Shown piece after piece: positions 45,696-54,601 of a stretch of 64,000 nt of DNA. Location: positions 62,001 through 126,000 of the forward strand of contig CAIOKE010000363.1 of assembly GCA_903858815.1 (NCBI GenBank). The letters are read 5' to 3'. This DNA is from an uncultured Planctomycetaceae bacterium. GTDB lineage: Bacteria; Planctomycetota; Planctomycetia; Planctomycetales; Planctomycetaceae. The position numbers and the translations under genes were made by a program. How positions within the stretch are numbered: the first letter of the stretch is position 1; each line of letters begins with the position of its first letter. The notes beneath the pieces were generated by a model. That model did not search any database. It saw only the letters and a list, made by a program, of their open reading frames with translations, and was not told the DNA's origin.

Positions 45696-45761
45696 ATTGC
45701 CTCGTTTAATTGAGCAGGCGTGTGTTGTGTGTGTGATCTTCTGTCAGGTCAGGGTCGATCG

Positions 45762-46778
45762 ATGAGTACGGCATTTCGGCGTGCAGGTGGCTGGGTTTCC
45801 GTGATTTTGCCGGCATTTTGTGCGGTGCTGGCGGCTGGTTGTTCGGTGGAGTCGGTGGATGCGCCACCAGCGACGGCGGGTTCGGGGCCAGCGACGGCAG
45901 CGGGTTCTGGTGGTGTTGAGAAGCGTATTCAGGTGGACGGCAGCAGTACGGTGGCGAAGGTTGCGGCAGCTGTGCAGGAGGAGTTCACGAAGAAGTTTTC
46001 CGACACGAAGGTGGCTCTGAAGGTGACAGGCACGGGTACTGGTTTCAAGGAGATGATTGCTGACCGGATTGATATTGCGAATGCATCACGACCGGTGAAG
46101 GAATCTGAGCGGGCTGACTGTGTGAAGGCCGGGATTGAACTTGTGGAACTGAAGATTGCCTTGGACGGTCTGACTGTGTGTGTGAATCCGCAGAACGACT
46201 GGGTGGACACCATCACGGTGGCTCAATTGAAGAAGATCTGGGAACCGGGCAGTGCAGTGAAGACGTGGAAGGACGTGGATCCGGCGTGGCCTGACGTTCC
46301 GCTGGCATTATTTGGACCTGGTGAGGAGTCCGGCACGTTTGATTATTTCACGGAAGTGATCAATGGGAAGGAGGACCAGATCACTGAGAGTTACAGCGCG
46401 AGTGCTGACGACAACGTGACGATCACGGGGATAGCGGGTGAGAAGGGTGGGATGGGGTTCTTTGGCTGTGCGTATTATTTTTCGAACCGTGACAAGGTGA
46501 AGGCGTTGAAGATTTCGGCGACGGACAGTGTGGCGGACGGAGTTGAGCCGACTATTGAAACGGTGCGTTCGGGTGCCTATAAGCCGTTGTCTCGTCCGTT
46601 GTTCATCTATGTGAAGAAGAGTTCTCTGGCGAAGCCTGAAGTCCTGGATTTTGCGAAGTTCTTTCTGAACGAGGGGCAGGCTCAGGTGGGTGCTGTGGGC
46701 TATGTGCCGCTGGAGGAGTCGGAGTTGAAGTCTGTGAACGAGGCATTGGATGCCGCGGTTGGTGGTGCGGGCAAGTAG
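45762..46778 (+). CDS. pstS: phosphate ABC transporter substrate-binding lipoprotein PstS
   Basis: 338 residues from the ATG at 45762. The lipoprotein signal has Cys27 in AVLAAGC. The mature part opens with the phosphate loop IQVDGSSTVAKVAA, then VTGTGTGFKEMIADRIDIAN with SRPVKESE, and FGPGEESGTFDYFTEVI, all typical of PstS. It binds phosphate outside the membrane and delivers it to PstCA. First gene of the pst unit, with a PHO-box-like site upstream. Ser/Thr-rich linker after the lipid anchor. Confidence 0.95.
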   Translation: MSTAFRRAGGWVSVILPAFCAVLAAGCSVESVDAPPATAGSGPATAAGSGGVEKRIQVDGSSTVAKVAAAVQEEFTKKFSDTKVALKVTGTGTGFKEMIADRIDIANASRPVKESERADCVKAGIELVELKIALDGLTVCVNPQNDWVDTITVAQLKKIWEPGSAVKTWKDVDPAWPDVPLALFGPGEESGTFDYFTEVINGKEDQITESYSASADDNVTITGIAGEKGGMGFFGCAYYFSNRDKVKALKISATDSVADGVEPTIETVRSGAYKPLSRPLFIYVKKSSLAKPEVLDFAKFFLNEGQAQVGAVGYVPLEESELKSVNEALDAAVGGAGK

Positions 46779-46901
46779 TTTGGTTGTGATCTGCAGGCAA
46801 GGTTGTATTCTGGTCTGGAAGTCGACCAGCAGTGGTCGGCTTCCTGTCAGTTGCTCCTTGTGCGTCTGGGTTTTGGGCTGAGTTTTGTGGAAAGCGTGCT
46901 G

Positions 46902-47843
46902 ATGCCAACCTGGGCGTCTCAGAGGATTCATCGGCGTCATGAAACGCTCATTCGCTGGGTGTTGTTTGTGTGTGCTGCGCTGTCGGTTTTGACGACAGCG
47001 GCCATCATTTATGTGCTGCTCAGCAATGCCGTGTATGCTCCGGGTGAGAAGACGGCATTTTTCGAGCGTGTTTCATTATGGCAGTTTCTGACGAGTGGCC
47101 GGTGGAAGCCGACTGATGGTGCGGGTGCTCATTTTGGGATCTGGCCCCTGCTGACGGGGACTCTGCAGGTGGCATTGATTGCATCGCTGGTGAGTATTCC
47201 GGCGGGTCTGGGTGCAGCGGTGTACATGAGCGAGTATGCTCAGCCACGTGAGCGTGAATTTCTGAAACCGGTTCTGGAAATACTGGCGGGGATTCCGTCG
47301 GTGGTTTATGGCTTTTTTGCTCTGAAGTTCATTACTCCCTGGGTTCTTAAACCTTTGTTTGGTCTGTTGGGTCTGGAGATTTCGATCTTCAACAGTCTGA
47401 GTGCGGGGATAGTGGTGGGGATTATGGTGACGCCGCTGATAGCGTCACTGAGTGAGGACGTGATTCGGGCAGTTCCTCGCAGTCTGCGTGAGGCTGCATA
47501 TGCCCTTGGAAGTACTCGTTTCGACGTGTCTGCTCGCGTGGTGGTACCAGCGGCATTGTCTGGCATTCTGGCATCCTTTCTGCTGGCATTTTCGCGGGCT
47601 GTTGGTGAGACGATGGCGGTGGCGATTGCGGCTGGTGGCAATCCGTTATTGACGTTGAATCCACTGCGTGGTTCGCAGACGATGACGGGATTTATGGTGC
47701 ATGCCAGTGCGGGTGACAGTGCTGCTGATTCGATCAGTCGGATGAGCATGTATGCGGTGGGGATCACATTATTTGTGATGACGCTGACGATCAATCTGCT
47801 GTCGGGCTGGATTATGCGGCGTTATCGCGAGGTGTATCAATGA
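46902..47843 (+). CDS. pstC: phosphate ABC transporter permease PstC
   Basis: 313 residues from the ATG at 46902; the frame is open to 46803. About six membrane segments, starting with LIRWVLFVCAALSVLTTAAI. The permease coupling motif is present (SLREAAYALGSTRFDVSARV with a following AFSRAVGETMAV). It pairs with PstA to form the membrane channel. Its TGA overlaps the pstA ATG by four bases (47840-47843). The loop between segments 1 and 2 is normal for PstC. Confidence 0.94.
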   Translation: MPTWASQRIHRRHETLIRWVLFVCAALSVLTTAAIIYVLLSNAVYAPGEKTAFFERVSLWQFLTSGRWKPTDGAGAHFGIWPLLTGTLQVALIASLVSIPAGLGAAVYMSEYAQPREREFLKPVLEILAGIPSVVYGFFALKFITPWVLKPLFGLLGLEISIFNSLSAGIVVGIMVTPLIASLSEDVIRAVPRSLREAAYALGSTRFDVSARVVVPAALSGILASFLLAFSRAVGETMAVAIAAGGNPLLTLNPLRGSQTMTGFMVHASAGDSAADSISRMSMYAVGITLFVMTLTINLLSGWIMRRYREVYQ

Positions 47844-48898
47844 GTGTAGTGTCGGGAGGTGTGACCGACGGTGTTGTGTCGGTGAGTTTCACGGCTGGTT
47901 CGGACAGTCAGATACGTCAGCGGCTGCGTTTGTCGCGGTATTTCATGTGGCTGTGCAGGCTGGTGACGTATGCCTCACTGGGTGTACTGGCCGTTCTGTT
48001 GCTGTCGATCATGTGGAACAGTGCTGGTCGGCTGAGCTGGAGTTTTCTGTCCAGTCATTATTCGATGCATCCGGATCGTTGTGGCATTCTGGCGGGGTTG
48101 TGGGGGACATTCTGGCTGGTGTTATTGACGGCCGGTTTTTCGATTCCGATTGGAGTGGGTTCGGCTGTGTATCTGGAGGAGATGGCGAAGGACACGTGGT
48201 TGATGCGTGTGATTCGTGTGAACCTGTCGAATCTGGCGGGTGTGCCATCGATAGTGTATGGGATTCTGGGATTGACGGCATTTCGTCCGCTGATGATTCA
48301 GCTGCAGTCATTGTTTGATGGGCGTCATGCGGTGAATGTGCTGGGGATGTTTCGTCTGCGACTGCTGAAGCTGGACATTTACGATGGAAGTGTGCTGATT
48401 GGTGCGATGACGATGAGTCTGGTGATTCTGCCGACGGTGATCATAGCTTCACAGGAGGCATTGCGAGCGGTTCCGGCATCGATTCGAGTGGCATCTCTGG
48501 CCCTTGGTGCGACTCGCTGGCAGACCATCTGGCGTCAGGTTCTGCCAGCTTCGCTGCCTGGGATTGCGACGGGCGTGATTCTGTCGATATCTCGGGCGAT
48601 CGGCGAAGCGGCTCCTTTGATGATGATTGGTGTATTGACGGTGGCGTCGATGTGTCCGGGTGGTCTGGAGTCACCGGGGCAGTTGTTGTCTGAGCCTGGG
48701 CGGGTGCTGGCGGTGCCATTTGACCAGTTCACGGCGATGCCGGTGGAGATTTACGACTGGTCGAAGCAGCCGGACCCGGAGGATCGTTTTACGGCGGTGG
48801 CGGCAGCGGGGATTCTGGTGCTGTTGGCGGTGTTGCTGACGGTGAATGCGGCGGCGATGATAGTGCGTTATCGGGCTGGTCGCCAGTTGCGGTGGTAG
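47840..48898 (+). CDS. pstA: phosphate ABC transporter permease PstA
   Basis: 352 residues; its ATG overlaps the pstC stop (ATGA). About six membrane segments, the coupling helix region SIRVASLALGATRWQTIWRQ and ISRAIGEAAPLMMIGVL. A longer N-terminal polar region (about 35 residues) than E. coli PstA, and an insert after the fifth segment (LESPGQLLSEPGRVL, then EIYDWSKQPDPEDRF) like that of several non-proteobacterial PstA proteins. With PstC it forms the channel energised by PstB. Confidence 0.94.
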   Translation: MSVVSGGVTDGVVSVSFTAGSDSQIRQRLRLSRYFMWLCRLVTYASLGVLAVLLLSIMWNSAGRLSWSFLSSHYSMHPDRCGILAGLWGTFWLVLLTAGFSIPIGVGSAVYLEEMAKDTWLMRVIRVNLSNLAGVPSIVYGILGLTAFRPLMIQLQSLFDGRHAVNVLGMFRLRLLKLDIYDGSVLIGAMTMSLVILPTVIIASQEALRAVPASIRVASLALGATRWQTIWRQVLPASLPGIATGVILSISRAIGEAAPLMMIGVLTVASMCPGGLESPGQLLSEPGRVLAVPFDQFTAMPVEIYDWSKQPDPEDRFTAVAAAGILVLLAVLLTVNAAAMIVRYRAGRQLRW

Positions 48899-48976
48899 TG
48901 AGTGGTAGTGTTATTGGGGTGGAGTGTCGTGTTGTGTGGTTGAGTGTGCGGGATTGAGTGTCAGAAAGCAGGGCTT

Positions 48977-49807
48977 ATGGGATCCAGTGTTTCCGGTCTG
49001 TCAGTACCACCATCTGTTCCGGGTGTGGATCGCAATCTGGACACATCGGGTCATGCGGCGGCGATTGATGTACAGGGAATGAATTTCTTTTATGGCGAGC
49101 AGCAGGTGCTGTTTGACATATCGCTGGTGGTTCCTGAGCGATCGGTGACTGCTCTGATTGGTCCATCGGGATGTGGGAAGAGTACGTTTCTGCGGACGTT
49201 GAATCGGATGAATGACCTGGTTGACGGGGCGCGGTGTACTGGTCGGTGTCTGGTGGAGGGGCAGAATATCATGGATCCGGCAGTGGATGTGGTGCTGCTG
49301 CGGAAACATGTGGGGATGGTCTTCCAGAAGTCGACTCCGTTCCCCAAATCGATTTTTGACAACGTGGCGTATGGTCCTCGTGTGGCGGGCGAGAAGAATC
49401 GGGCGGTGCTGTCGGAGCTGGTGGAGTCGTGTCTGAGGAAGGCGGCGTTGTGGGAAGAGGTGCGGGATCGGCTGCACACATCAGCGATGGCATTATCGGG
49501 TGGTCAGCAGCAGCGACTCTGTATTGCTCGAACGCTGGCCACGAACCCGAAGATTATTCTGATGGACGAACCTGCTTCGGCGCTTGATCCGGCAAGTACA
49601 GATCGGATTGAGAACCTGATTGGGGAATTGTGCAGTAACTACACGATCGTGATTGTGACTCACAATATGCAGCAGGCATCGCGAGTGAGTCATCAGACGG
49701 CATTTTTCTTTCGTGGTCGGTTAGTGGAATGTGGGCCGACGATGAAGATTTTCACCAGTCCTGCAGAGAAGCAGACGGAAGACTACATCACGGGTCGATT
49801 TGGTTGA
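48977..49807 (+). CDS. pstB: phosphate ABC transporter ATP-binding protein PstB
   Basis: 276 residues from the ATG at 48977, with GCAGGG upstream; a GTG at 48944 is also in frame. Walker A at residues 62-70 (GPSGCGKST), PstB-type [36 protein letters not shown], the signature [17 protein letters not shown] and Walker [17 protein letters not shown]. The N-terminal 27 residues are a non-conserved lead. Intergenic distance to pstA is 78 bases. It ends 36 bases before the second PHO-box-like site. Confidence 0.95.
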
Positions 49808-49843
49808 TTTGGAAACTGCTGCAACAGGTTGTTTTCATGTGAT

Positions 49844-49861
49844 CTTAACACTTTATTAACA
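49844..49861 (+). promoter_or_regulatory. PHO-box-like direct repeat upstream of phoU
   Basis: CTTAACA (49844) and ATTAACA (49855), again with an 11-base period, followed by ATCC. It lies 63-80 bases before the phoU start, nearly the same offset as the copy before pstS, and the 22-base blocks match at about 16 positions. Confidence 0.65.
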
Positions 49862-49923
49862 ATCCGCAGGCAGACTGTGAGCTAAGGTGCTGCCGCTGGA
49901 TCTGACTGATCGGGATTCGGCCG

Positions 49924-50616
49924 ATGACGATTCACTTTGTTCGGGAAATGGAGCACTTGCATCGTGGCATTCTGTCGATGTGTTCGACGGTGGAAGAGTT
50001 GATACATGATTCGGTGGACGGTCTGCGGGCTGGTCGTCCGGATCTGGCTCGGGAGCTGTCGGGGCGTGACGGGGAGGTGGACGAGTGGGACATTCGGATC
50101 GAGGAGGAGTGCCTGAAGATTCTGGCGCTTTATCATCCGGTTGCGAATGACCTGCGGCGTGTGGCTGTCGTGATGAAGATTGGTGCGGAGCTGGAGCGAG
50201 TGGCTGATCTGGCAGTCAGCATAGCGGAGCGTTCGGCTGGGATTGCTGAGCATGGGGGATTCCCGATGCCTGAGCGTCTCTCCGAGATGGCTCGTGAGTC
50301 GCTCAGCATGCTGCATGACAGTATTGATGCATTTGTGGAACAGAACGCTGAGTTGGCTCGACGGGTTTGTCTGCGAGACGAAGCCGTGGACCAGCTGAAT
50401 CGGCAATTGATTGATGATGTGGTGCAGGTGATGAAGCAGCGTCCGGATCTGGTTGAGCCGGGGCTGCATTTGTTTTCGGTCATTCGTCATGTGGAACGAG
50501 TGGCGGATCATGCGACGAATATCGCTGAGGACGTGGTGTACCTGGTGGAGGGTGCCATAATACGGCATCCGAGGTTGCCGCGAAGGACAGGGAATTCCAG
50601 GGCCGGTGGTGCTTAG
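49924..50616 (+). CDS. phoU: phosphate-specific transport system accessory protein PhoU
   Basis: 230 residues, all-helical, with the two PhoU repeats and their metal-binding Asp/Glu motifs: EMEHLHRGILSMCSTVEELI, DVDEWDIR-type (DGEVDEWDIRIEEECLKIL), ANDLRRVAVVMKIGAELERV in repeat 1, and VDQLNRQLIDDVVQVM, FSVIRHVERVADHATNIAED in repeat 2. It links PstSCAB activity to the PhoR/PhoB signalling pair. It has its own PHO-box-like site rather than reading from pstB, and phoB follows 39 bases later. Confidence 0.94.
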   Translation: MTIHFVREMEHLHRGILSMCSTVEELIHDSVDGLRAGRPDLARELSGRDGEVDEWDIRIEEECLKILALYHPVANDLRRVAVVMKIGAELERVADLAVSIAERSAGIAEHGGFPMPERLSEMARESLSMLHDSIDAFVEQNAELARRVCLRDEAVDQLNRQLIDDVVQVMKQRPDLVEPGLHLFSVIRHVERVADHATNIAEDVVYLVEGAIIRHPRLPRRTGNSRAGGA

Positions 50617-50655
50617 CAGTCATCCGGTTCGCAGAAACAAGGCAACGCTGGCCGT

Positions 50656-51339
50656 ATGCAGCCAACGATCCTGGTGATAGAGGACGAGCAGTCCATCGCG
50701 GATGTGGTGATCTACAATCTGCGGAAGGAAGGTTACAACGTCCAGTGGGAGCGGGACGGTCGTGGCGGTTTGGCTCGAGCGCAGACGCTGCTGCCGGATC
50801 TGGTCGTGCTTGATCTGATGCTGCCGGGCATTGACGGTCTGCAGATCTGTCGGGTTCTGAAGGGTGACCCGCGAACTCGAACGATTCCAGTGATGATGCT
50901 GACGGCTCGCAGTACAGAGACTGACGAGATTGTCGGCTTCAATATGGGTGCGGACGACTATGTGACGAAGCCGTTTCGGGTGCAGCCACTGATTCATCGA
51001 GTGAAGGCGTTGCTGCGTCGTGTGGAGACGGCGGAAGCAGGTAAGAGTGTGATCAGTCTGCACGGCATTGAAATTGATCGGGTAAATCACACGACGAAGT
51101 TCAATGGGGTTGAGCTGGAACTGACGCCAACGGAATTCCGGATGCTGTGGACGATGATGTCTCAGCCGGGCCGTCCGTTTTCGCGTAACGAGCTGATGGA
51201 AACGTCACGTGGTGAGGATGCGAATTCGCTGGAGCGAACGATAGACGTTCACGTGCGATCGCTGCGCAAGAAGCTGGAGCCTGAATCGGAGTTGATTGAA
51301 ACGGTGCGGGGCGTGGGCTATCGGTTTATCCGGAAGTAA
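50656..51339 (+). CDS. phoB: OmpR/PhoB-family response regulator
   Basis: 227 residues. Receiver domain residues 1-120 with phospho-acceptor Asp53 (VVLDLMLPGIDG), acidic pocket IEDE (residues 8-11), MLTARS and the invariant Lys in DYVTKPF. A winged-helix DNA-binding domain follows (ELTPTEFRMLWTMMS, RNELMETSRGEDA, SLERTIDVHVRSLRKKLEPE). Context and similarity mark it as PhoB. No histidine kinase (phoR) lies on either side. Its stop codon abuts that of the convergent ferredoxin gene with no spacer. Confidence 0.9.
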   Translation: MQPTILVIEDEQSIADVVIYNLRKEGYNVQWERDGRGGLARAQTLLPDLVVLDLMLPGIDGLQICRVLKGDPRTRTIPVMMLTARSTETDEIVGFNMGADDYVTKPFRVQPLIHRVKALLRRVETAEAGKSVISLHGIEIDRVNHTTKFNGVELELTPTEFRMLWTMMSQPGRPFSRNELMETSRGEDANSLERTIDVHVRSLRKKLEPESELIETVRGVGYRFIRK

Positions 51340-51702
51340 TCAGTTCCAGAATTTGTCACCGTGCCAGTTGATTGGCGGGTGTGTTTCGACTTCGACATCG
51401 CCGTTGACGCGGGTTTGGCAGGCGAGCCGGACTTCTTTGCCGGGGTTGCTGAGGATTTTGATGCCGAGCAGTGGGTTGAGGAGTCGCCAGAGGCGTTCGA
51501 GCAGACCGGCGTTGCTGACTTTGTCAGCACCTTTGGCAACGATCACGTTGCAGCTGCAGCAGGTGCCAAGGCCCATGCAATTGACGACTTTATGTGGCCC
51601 GGAATACAGCTGCACGCCGTTTTTGCGAGCGATGGTCCGGAGGTCTTCGCCTTCTGCGGCGTCAACAGTGACTTTTTCGTTGACAAACTTGACCTTGGGC
51701 AT
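51340..51702 (-). CDS. [2Fe-2S] ferredoxin, adrenodoxin/plant-like fold
   Basis: 120 residues. Cysteine ligands Cys42, Cys48, Cys51 (CMGLGTCCSC gives C-x5-C-x2-C) and Cys95 (RLACQT) match the adrenodoxin/Isc Fdx spacing; Cys49 is an extra residue. The domain has an insert between Cys51 and Cys95 (LLERLWRLLNPLLGI) and a short C-terminal tail (PPINWHGDKFWN). An electron carrier, partner unknown. It is the last gene of a possible leftward unit beginning at the cobalamin riboswitch. Confidence 0.88.
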   Translation of the reverse strand: MPKVKFVNEKVTVDAAEGEDLRTIARKNGVQLYSGPHKVVNCMGLGTCCSCNVIVAKGADKVSNAGLLERLWRLLNPLLGIKILSNPGKEVRLACQTRVNGDVEVETHPPINWHGDKFWN

Positions 51703-51744: not shown

Positions 51745-52599
51745 TCACCATGCCACCATGCTAGTGCTGCTGGTTCCTGAATTCCAGATGCGAGGCGCGG
51801 ATCCCGACACTGGGAAGGGCAGTTTTTGCGGATTTCGTGGTTTTTCGGGGGTGTCTTCGGACAACAGGGCCTGCAGTTCGGCAAATTCCTGCTGGCAGAG
51901 CGTGCAGTGTTCGGCGGAGCTGAAGCTGCGGGGGGGTGAATTCTGGTCGGCCGGGAGTTCCGTCAGCAGCTTGGGCAGGATGTGTCGGGTGATCTGACGG
52001 AGGGCATCGCGGCTGGTGCAGTGGGGGCAGAGGTGGAAAGCGATTCCGGCCTGTGCCAGCCGGGCCAGCAGTGGTTTGAGGATCAGCCAGGCGCGTCGTT
52101 GTCCCGGCAGCAGGTCCGAATTCGGCAGTTCGGCGGTGGCGGGCAGTGAGGTGGTTACCTTGAGTGTTGAGTTGGCGGTGGGTTTGAGTGGTGGCGAAGG
52201 GGGAAGATCGAGCAGGTGTTGAGGGGGTTGCACAGTCACGAGGCTGTGGGTGAGTTGCAGGTTGACCGGTCCATCCGGTCCGTGCCAGCGCAGTGTGAAC
52301 GGGGTGATTTGCGTGGGTGCGGTGCGGGAATTGCGGGGCAGGGAGCAGCTGCCGAGGACACCGATCTGGTGATATTGAAGCCCATCTGGCAGTGTGGCGT
52401 CAGGGCCGGTGTGAGGCAGTTTGTAGTTGATAAAATGCAGTGATTGCCCGGCCAGATGTCCGGGAAGATTTCCGACGAGTGCCAGCAGGACCGTGGCGGT
52501 ACCGCGAGTGGAGCGGACTTCCAGCCAGCCATCGATGGTATTTTTCATGTCATTTCGGACAGTTCCTTTGAGTACGGAGTGATCAATCCGGAGCGTCAT
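51745..52599 (-). CDS. hypothetical protein with two CxxC pairs
   Basis: 284 residues. The N-terminal half is a beta-rich domain (MTLRIDHSVLKGTVRNDMKN, ATVLLALVGNLPGHLAGQSL). The C-terminal half has CPHC near residue 190 (FHLCPHCTSRDALRQI) and CTLC near 230, which could make a four-cysteine zinc site, followed by a Pro/Ser-rich tail. It lies between the DUF1559 gene and the ferredoxin on the same strand with 42 bases to the latter. I do not recognise it. Confidence 0.65.
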   Translation of the reverse strand: MTLRIDHSVLKGTVRNDMKNTIDGWLEVRSTRGTATVLLALVGNLPGHLAGQSLHFINYKLPHTGPDATLPDGLQYHQIGVLGSCSLPRNSRTAPTQITPFTLRWHGPDGPVNLQLTHSLVTVQPPQHLLDLPPSPPLKPTANSTLKVTTSLPATAELPNSDLLPGQRRAWLILKPLLARLAQAGIAFHLCPHCTSRDALRQITRHILPKLLTELPADQNSPPRSFSSAEHCTLCQQEFAELQALLSEDTPEKPRNPQKLPFPVSGSAPRIWNSGTSSTSMVAW

Positions 52600-52722: not shown

Positions 52723-53616
52723 TCACTGCAGATCGTACAGTTCATCCTGAAGCTGCGGATTGTGCAGGTTCCCGCGGGACAGGAAGCCGAGGCGACGACG
52801 GGTCATCTGTTCCGCCTGTTCCGGGTAGACATAGTTGGGGCCTGGTACCTGCACCGACGTGGCCCAGCTCAGACTTTCCACATGCCCATCCAGAAATGCG
52901 ACATTGGCCGAGTCTGTGTGGCGAAAATGCACCGTGGGGAAGTTGCTGCTGGGTGGATCCAGCAGCCAGTTCTCTTCAAAGCTGAGCTGTACCGGGTAGA
53001 ACTGCAGCAGGTTTACCGCGGCACTGTCGGCGAAGGCGACCGTTTCGGAAAGCGTTGCCACATCGCGCAGGCGACGACAGGCGGGCTGACGACTGAAGAC
53101 GGCCTGCCATGTCGGGGGCAGCCATTCGATACCGCTGGTACGAGCGAGATAGTGGCCGTTGTATCCGTATCCGGTTGCCGGTCGACCAAAGCGGACGCGT
53201 TCCATCTGAGCCATACCGAAGTCCGGGCACTGGAAGGAGGCGTAGTTGGTTTCCATATAGGGACTGAGCGGTCCGGCGGCGAAATCGAGTCGTGCCGTCA
53301 GATCGGGAACCTGGTAGTTGACATTACCGAACCAGTAGCGGGCCTGTCCGGGTGCACCGCTCCACGTCTGCAGATACTGCAGCTGCTGCTGATCTTCGAT
53401 CACATAGGGAATCAGATGTTCGTTGTAGACGTCAGCGTAGTTGTGCATGGCCAGCACCAGCTGCCGGAGGCTATTGCGGCACTGGACACTGCGAGCGGCC
53501 GCGCGGGCCTGCTGAACGGCCGGCAGCAGGAGGCTGACGAGTACGGAAATAATGGCGATGACGACCAGCAGTTCAATGAGTGTAAAACCGCGAGCGTGAC
53601 GGGTGCGAGTACGCAT
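52723..53616 (-). CDS. DUF1559 prepilin-type exported protein, downstream of a cobalamin riboswitch
   Basis: 298 residues from the ATG at 53616, which puts the prepilin motif at the N-terminus ([19 protein letters not shown]), as in the family; the frame is open to 53733. The C-terminal H-X9-DG motif is present ([17 protein letters not shown]). The product is predicted to be processed by prepilin peptidase and to enter a type IV-like assembly or stay membrane-anchored by its helix. The 140-base gap to the riboswitch at 53757 contains no other gene. Cobalamin control suggests a role in corrinoid uptake or use, which is inference. Confidence 0.9.
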
Positions 53617-53756
53617 GCAACAGATCCTGCTGTCAGACTGTGACGCGGACGAGCACGACGACGACCACTGAGCCACTGATGCCCTTGCCGTGGGTTCAGG
53701 TGGAGCACAGGAGCGGGCGCCGGGCGTCCCCAACCGCGAGGGAGAACCGGAATGCT

Positions 53757-53966
53757 GGCAGAGGCAGGTCTTCTGGCTTACGGATCAGCCCGTCACAGCG
53801 CCTTCCCGGGTGACCAGCGAATTTGACGCTGATCAATCCAGTGGCATGCAGCAGTGACGGTCCCCGATTACAGCGGCGCGACCGCGACGGAATTCCGAAT
53901 ACATCGGTCACCGTCTTCCCTTTTCATCTGCACCCGCGGTGACGTTACGCACCGCCCGCAGACACC
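53757..53966 (-). promoter_or_regulatory. cobalamin (adenosylcobalamin-type) riboswitch
   Basis: Read on the minus strand from 53966: an opening GGTG; AAAAGGGAA-type junction (near 53923); the B12-box core GCGGTCGCGCCGCTGTAAT; GCCACTGG; CGGGAAGG; and the closing AAGCCAGAAGACCTGCCT at 53762-53779. These blocks occur in the canonical order and spacing of the cobalamin riboswitch. It lies between pyrE (stop at 54041) and the DUF1559 gene. It should lower expression when cobalamin is abundant. Tertiary detail and ligand subtype were not modelled. Confidence 0.9.
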
Positions 53967-54040
53967 TTTGCAGCGTGGCCCGAAAACCGAGCCACCAGTC
54001 ACAGTATACAGGGGAACTTGCAGTTCTCAGTCAACCGTTT

Positions 54041-54601
54041 TCAGTTCTCAATTGCGGGTGGTGTGATGCCGAAGTCGCGGATGGTGAGCAGTGCGGAGAA
54101 GGTCAGGCCGCGGGCTTTGAAGGCGGCTTCACCACCCTGCAGGCGGTCGACGATGCCGACGACGTGCACGACTTCACAGCCGAATTCCTGAACGCGGTCG
54201 ATTGCCTGCAGGGCACTGCCGCCGGTGGTGACGACGTCGTCCACGATCACGACTTTGTCGCCGGGTTTGATCGGGCCTTCGATGAACCTTTGTGTGCCGT
54301 GGCCTTTGGCTTCCTTGCGGACCATGAAGCCCTGCAGTGAACGATTCTGGCCGGCTGCCGCCACAAGGACTCCGCCGACAATCGGGTCGGCTCCGATAGA
54401 CATGCCGCCGAAGCCACTGAAGGGAACATCCTGCAGCAGTTCGAGCAGTCCGAGGGAAATCTGCAGCAGGCCTTCGGCGCTGAGTGTGACTTGTTTGCCG
54501 TCGAGGTAGTAGGTGGATTTTTTTCCGGAGGCCAGTGTGAAGTCACCGAACTTCAGGGCGCGTTCACGGATCAGTTCCATCAGTCGATTGCGGTTGTACA
54601 T
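54041..54601 (-). CDS. pyrE: orotate phosphoribosyltransferase
   Basis: 186 residues from the ATG at 54601. The PRPP-binding loop is VVIVDDVVTTGGSA (residues about 117-130) and the flexible lysine loop region is VRKEAKGHGTQRFIEG. An opening FGDFTLASGKKSTYYLDGK is typical of PyrE. It converts orotate and PRPP to OMP in pyrimidine synthesis. An open frame continues upstream to 55162 but consists of repeat sequence and antisense of ubiA. It is followed by the riboswitch 75 bases later. Confidence 0.93.
   Translation of the reverse strand: MYNRNRLMELIRERALKFGDFTLASGKKSTYYLDGKQVTLSAEGLLQISLGLLELLQDVPFSGFGGMSIGADPIVGGVLVAAAGQNRSLQGFMVRKEAKGHGTQRFIEGPIKPGDKVVIVDDVVTTGGSALQAIDRVQEFGCEVVHVVGIVDRLQGGEAAFKARGLTFSALLTIRDFGITPPAIEN

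Follow-up and report, generated by a model that had tools for sequence, protein, structure and literature searches.

A cobalamin riboswitch precedes a conserved subfamily of pilin-like DUF1559 genes in Planctomycetia

We found that a gene for a prepilin-type DUF1559 protein lies directly behind a cobalamin riboswitch in the window (the whole 64-kb stretch of planctomycete DNA analyzed here), and regulation of this gene by the B12 switch is strongly supported. The riboswitch itself is an ordinary member of the known family RF00174. The new element is the fixed association of such switches, across the Planctomycetia, with one subfamily of pilin-like proteins, here termed type A. The type A protein is probably exported, repressed by B12, and involved as a pilin-like component in the uptake of cobamides; the planctomycetes that have it are mostly without BtuB.

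The riboswitch and the gene it precedes

When the whole window was compared with Rfam using cmscan, the sole match was RF00174 (Cobalamin) at 53979-53746 on the minus strand, with a score of 101.3 bits (E 3.6e-24) and coverage of the complete model (positions 1-189 of 189). A preliminary description of this DNA had placed a B12 riboswitch on the minus strand at 53757-53966, about 140 bases before a DUF1559 gene; these positions fall inside the covariance-model match, which scores well over the gathering score of 31.5 bits, and the spacing between the end of the aptamer and the ATG of the gene (52723-53616) proved to be 129 nt. The features of the locus, all on the minus strand, are as follows.

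54041..54601, minus strand: pyrE-like phosphoribosyltransferase gene, upstream of the switch (PF00156); outside the system
54003..54030, minus strand: sigma-70-like promoter match CTGAGA-16-TATACT; suggestive only
53746..53979, minus strand: cobalamin riboswitch aptamer (complete RF00174 model, cmscan)
53727..53743, minus strand: small hairpin with a C-rich/G-rich stem and CGCGG in the loop, at the P13/L13 position directly 3′ of the Rfam model
52723..53616, minus strand: type A DUF1559 pilin-like gene, 297 aa, with prepilin leader (PF07963, PF07596, TIGR02532, TIGR04294)
52867..52929, minus strand: H-X9-DG motif region (TIGR04294 and invariant columns of alignment A2)
51745..52599, minus strand: hypothetical gene, downstream (no Pfam or NCBIfam match); probably outside the system
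51340..51702, minus strand: 2Fe-2S ferredoxin-like gene, downstream (weak PF13510 and TIGR02007 matches); probably outside the system

The candidate promoter is located between the pyrE stop codon and the aptamer, 24 nt 5′ of the latter, and agrees with 9 of 12 consensus bases (one such match was seen, compared to 0.1 expected in shuffled sequences). In an alignment of leaders from 11 loci of the same genus, the TCGCGG-type loop of the P13-like hairpin was mostly kept, while simple complementarity between L5 and L13 averaged 4.66 within a leader and 4.59 when the leaders of other loci were used. A search of the leader for an intrinsic terminator found none. The only other RF00174 match in the 6.39-Mb genome from which the window derives (G000:C81:5221-5415) reached 29.6 bits, under the gathering score, upstream of rpmE/prfA-like genes, and is probably a chance match.

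The protein encoded behind the switch matches PF07963 (N_methyl) and the N-terminal part of PF07596 (DUF1559); the latter match scores 44.4 bits against a curated threshold of 23.3 but covers only profile positions 1-32. The prepilin N-terminus model TIGR02532 is over its cut-off, and the H-X9-DG model TIGR04294 reaches 21.9 bits (cut-off 19) at residues 230-250, a region in which alignment A2 shows the residues R-H, A-N-V, and D-G-H-V to be invariant among type A proteins. Profile-profile comparison with hhalign related the C-terminal part of type A to ordinary DUF1559 proteins (93.6% probability, E 2e-7). N_methyl and DUF1559 were the only domains found, with no plug or beta-barrel match of the BtuB type and no match to PF14717 (DUF4465). 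An AlphaFold model built from an alignment of 66 sequences (pLDDT 93.1, pTM 0.87) consists of a helix at residues 2-54 of the modeled part and a beta-rich C-terminal domain, and confidently predicts a type IV pilin fold. Foldseek returned nothing under E 0.001 for this model, and in a VIA structural comparison all of the matches listed were type IV pilins, the best being a modest one to PilA4 of Thermus (6xxd; Z 5.3, rmsd 3.4, 124 aligned residues). As no B12-binding protein was among the matches of the predicted fold to solved structures, no ligand-binding structural relative can be named.

The genes flanking this pair appear to be outside the system. We observed pyrE, the hypothetical gene, and the ferredoxin gene beside the switch in one subgroup of the genus only, and they were absent at all other loci examined; their arrangement therefore has the appearance of local synteny. 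The earlier suggestion that the hypothetical gene and the ferredoxin gene are co-transcribed with the DUF1559 gene was not borne out, and an operon of the three as a general feature was rejected on the same grounds. The same description had reported no gene for cobalamin synthesis or a BtuB-type receptor behind the switch, and indeed none was present in the inspected 46-60 kb part of the window. At 45720-51339 on the plus strand, translations indicate a complete phosphate regulon in the order PstS-, PstC-, PstA-, PstB-, PhoU-, and PhoB-like.

Association of the switch with one DUF1559 subfamily

We detected RF00174 in 53 of 59 whole genomes sampled from the level of the genus to that of the class, and for 60 riboswitches from related genomes we analyzed the surrounding DNA, up to 12 kb in each case. 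A prepilin/DUF1559-type gene was the first gene after the switch in at least 42 of the 60, although PF07596 matches represent a small minority of genes (43 in the window's own genome). Genes upstream of the switch varied in both kind and strand among genomes. Since the neighbors are variable while the pairing recurs, the constant element is the switch together with the DUF1559 gene. One may alternatively suppose that the position is a coincidence, the switch serving another gene or being a relic and the DUF1559 transcript beginning downstream of it. The missing terminator and a 129-nt gap in which no expression platform was recognized would agree with such a reading. However, the pair is kept across families while the neighbors on both sides change, which indicates that the DUF1559 gene is the one that the switch serves, and pyrE lies upstream rather than downstream of the switch. 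We consider a coincidence to be very improbable.

We then placed 42 switch-linked DUF1559 proteins and 29 paralogs from the window's own genome in a maximum-likelihood tree. Thirty-two of the switch-linked proteins, including that of the window, formed a single clade (support 100/100) apart from the 29 paralogs; this clade, type A, spans five families (f1, f3, f4, f5, and f6). A second clade of nine switch-linked proteins, type B (support 86/92), is nested among ordinary DUF1559 proteins. Type B genes, found at loci L053, L062, L073, L076, L077, L080, L084, L088, and L091, are often followed by a DUF4465 gene, and a PEP-CTERM signal was present in the one type B protein tested.

When the C-terminal part of type A was used to search a second genome collection, 80 loci were retrieved, including ones from Fuerstiella, Schlesneria, Thalassoglobus neptunius, Planctomicrobium, relatives of Gemmata, and strain Pan216. 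Using a B12-box pattern that recovers 55 of the 60 known switches, we found the box upstream in 73 of the 76 evaluable type A loci, with the qualification that this collection partly overlaps the first genome set and the counts are thus not fully independent. The same pattern gave no matches around 30 paralog loci of the window's own genome (112.7 kb). The outcome of the pattern search was borne out by cmscan both at ten sampled type A loci (74-120 bits) and at the three misses. In a class-wide sample, RF00174 lay close upstream of the fetched type A genes in 18 of 20 and in 7 of 12 cases, two more loci being truncated at contig ends.

The association is not without departures. Some diverged type A homologs in genus g39 have no adjoining switch; of two genomes of this genus that were searched, one has switches before another DUF1559 gene and one has no switch at all. 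In three genomes of the window's own genus (G011, G012, and G015), the riboswitch and a strong type A gene are both missing, and it seems that switch and gene were lost together. In another genome (G059), near-identical riboswitch-DUF1559 leaders occur far apart (L284 and L286), and one of the genes is apparently broken.

B12 use, BtuB, and other genes under the same switches

The window's own genome encodes a B12-dependent MetH (TIGR02082, 1248 bits), and yet it has no recognized B12 uptake route among the genes sought. No BtuB-like receptor was matched in it, and PF01497, the BtuF family, was found neither there nor in any of 18 sampled genomes of the same genus. A single DUF6580 gene is present, away from the window locus. 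Matches to GATase_3 were weak and none was convincing as CobQ, true CobQ-type proteins scoring 4e-49 (G020) and 2e-55 (G039). The assembly, 99.4% complete, is a draft in 373 contigs, so the absence of any single gene is not proof. No transporter gene adjoins the pilin gene in this genus.

We compared the occurrence of type A with that of BtuB-type receptors, taking kinship into account by counts of genera only. Among the first 59 genomes, type A was present in 36 (one weak match excluded) and a BtuB-type receptor in 8, and no genome had both, compared to 4.9 expected (Fisher P 2e-4; by genus, P ~0.003). Among 148 genomes sampled across the class, 76 had type A, 15 had BtuB, and 2 had both, compared to 7.7 expected (P 0.002), although counted by genus the difference was not significant (2 versus 4.1 expected, P 0.12). 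The strict mutual exclusion suggested by the first set was softened by the two genomes having both: G147, with a clear type A gene and a clear BtuB gene, each with its own switch, and, weakly, G110. Avoidance of BtuB by type A is thus a real tendency and not a rule.

The other genes controlled by these switches are informative with respect to function. BtuB-type TonB receptors (TonB_dep_Rec and Plug) were the first genes at five loci (in G023, G027, G031, G040, and G049), and further targets were DUF6580 membrane proteins, BtuF-like PF01497 proteins, a PP-loop protein, MetE, and DUF4465, a B12-binding family with experimental support (PMC13398666). In G020, a type A gene heads a run that, from names read from the sequences, comprises BluB, CobQ, and more cobalamin genes. 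Forty of the 80 type A loci have a small lipoprotein-like gene with a Cys motif, and 25 have a DUF6580 gene on the same strand. At L047, the small gene occupies +1124..+1457 after the riboswitch, has a CxxC-type motif, and has no NCBIfam match; no such gene is found beside the window gene. Its product is a possible partner of type A.

Proposed role and relation to known systems

By analogy with the same switches elsewhere, the riboswitch in the leader would turn the DUF1559 gene down when cobalamin is sufficient, and the gene would be expressed when cobalamin is scarce. Its product is of the prepilin type, in which a short cleavable leader and one long helix for membrane anchoring or assembly precede a DUF1559-type beta domain at the C terminus. 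It would presumably be processed by prepilin peptidase and then exported and assembled. At the cell envelope, the protein may bind or present cobamides or, alternatively, it may belong to a pilus-like structure by which cobamides pass the outer membrane. The other genes under these switches and the bias of type A against BtuB agree with a role in uptake. The preliminary description had envisaged a corrinoid-responsive exported protein, possibly an uptake component; the link between switch and gene and a fitting regulon support this, while binding or transport of B12 is what we infer from them.

The gene may instead be B12-regulated without having a part in uptake, for example by encoding a surface protein or adhesin that is produced when B12 is short and could attach cells to algae or particles serving as a B12 source, or by belonging to a starvation-linked change of the envelope. 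Attachment is a common role of pilins, DUF1559 proteins are many and mostly have no B12 link (as the 43 matches in the window's own genome illustrate), and the gene stands without transporter neighbors in its own genus. However, the same switches elsewhere govern uptake, synthesis, and B12-related metabolism, type A tends to avoid BtuB, and the small lipoprotein-like gene and DUF6580 recur at type A loci. We therefore regard a surface or adhesion role as a less likely, if reasonable, alternative to cobamide uptake. That the system imports cobalt rather than cobamides is less likely still: nickel/cobalt transporters under B12 riboswitches have been described (PMC2667541), but with no convincing CobQ in the window's own genome it is the finished cobamide, rather than cobalt, that should be needed, and the partners DUF4465, BtuF-like proteins, and BtuB handle cobamides.

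Cobamide uptake by a pilin-like protein would differ from the systems to which it can be compared. The RNA is of the same family as in the RF00174-btuB arrangement, with a complete model, and such switches do precede BtuB-type receptors in related planctomycetes; here, however, the first gene is of the prepilin type, and the search of the genome gave no BtuB-like gene. In the B12 loci of Bacteroides (BtuG, BtuH, and BtuJ/DUF4465), too, riboswitches control additional proteins that accompany the transporter and are exported or located at the surface, a parallel extended in planctomycetes by the DUF4465 genes that often follow type B. The Bacteroides binders are lipoproteins that act with BtuB, whereas type A has a predicted pilin fold and occurs in genomes mostly without BtuB. 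With ordinary PF07596/SBP_bac_10 paralogs, type A shares the prepilin N-terminus, the H-X9-DG motif, and the C-terminal profile match. It is unlike them in that its Pfam match is limited to the first ~32 positions, it forms a separate clade, and it is tied to a B12 switch, which the 30 paralog loci are not. Pili-like fibers extending from the crateriform structures of planctomycetes bind dextran and have been proposed to serve the uptake of large molecules (PMC5394234). These fibers make a fiber-based cobamide route thinkable, unconnected as they are to the window protein; their protein make-up was not linked to DUF1559 in that work, and no B12 link was reported (PMC5394234).

DUF1559 proteins are the largest group of paralogs in some planctomycetes; Planctopirus limnophila has 68, of which two are essential (PMC10632474). 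In the open-licence papers searched, we found no link of DUF1559 or planctomycetes to cobalamin riboswitches. A conserved B12 switch before one orthologous DUF1559 subfamily assigns to it a specific, testable role. A broader and more tentative proposal, which we hold to be possible but rather doubtful, is that many Planctomycetia acquire cobamides at the outer envelope mainly through this pilin-fold subfamily, which would replace BtuB. If this were true, a pseudopilus-like system would be taking up a vitamin, and part of the large DUF1559 family would have its first function. The finding also suggests a way in which B12 may reach planctomycetes that have no BtuB.
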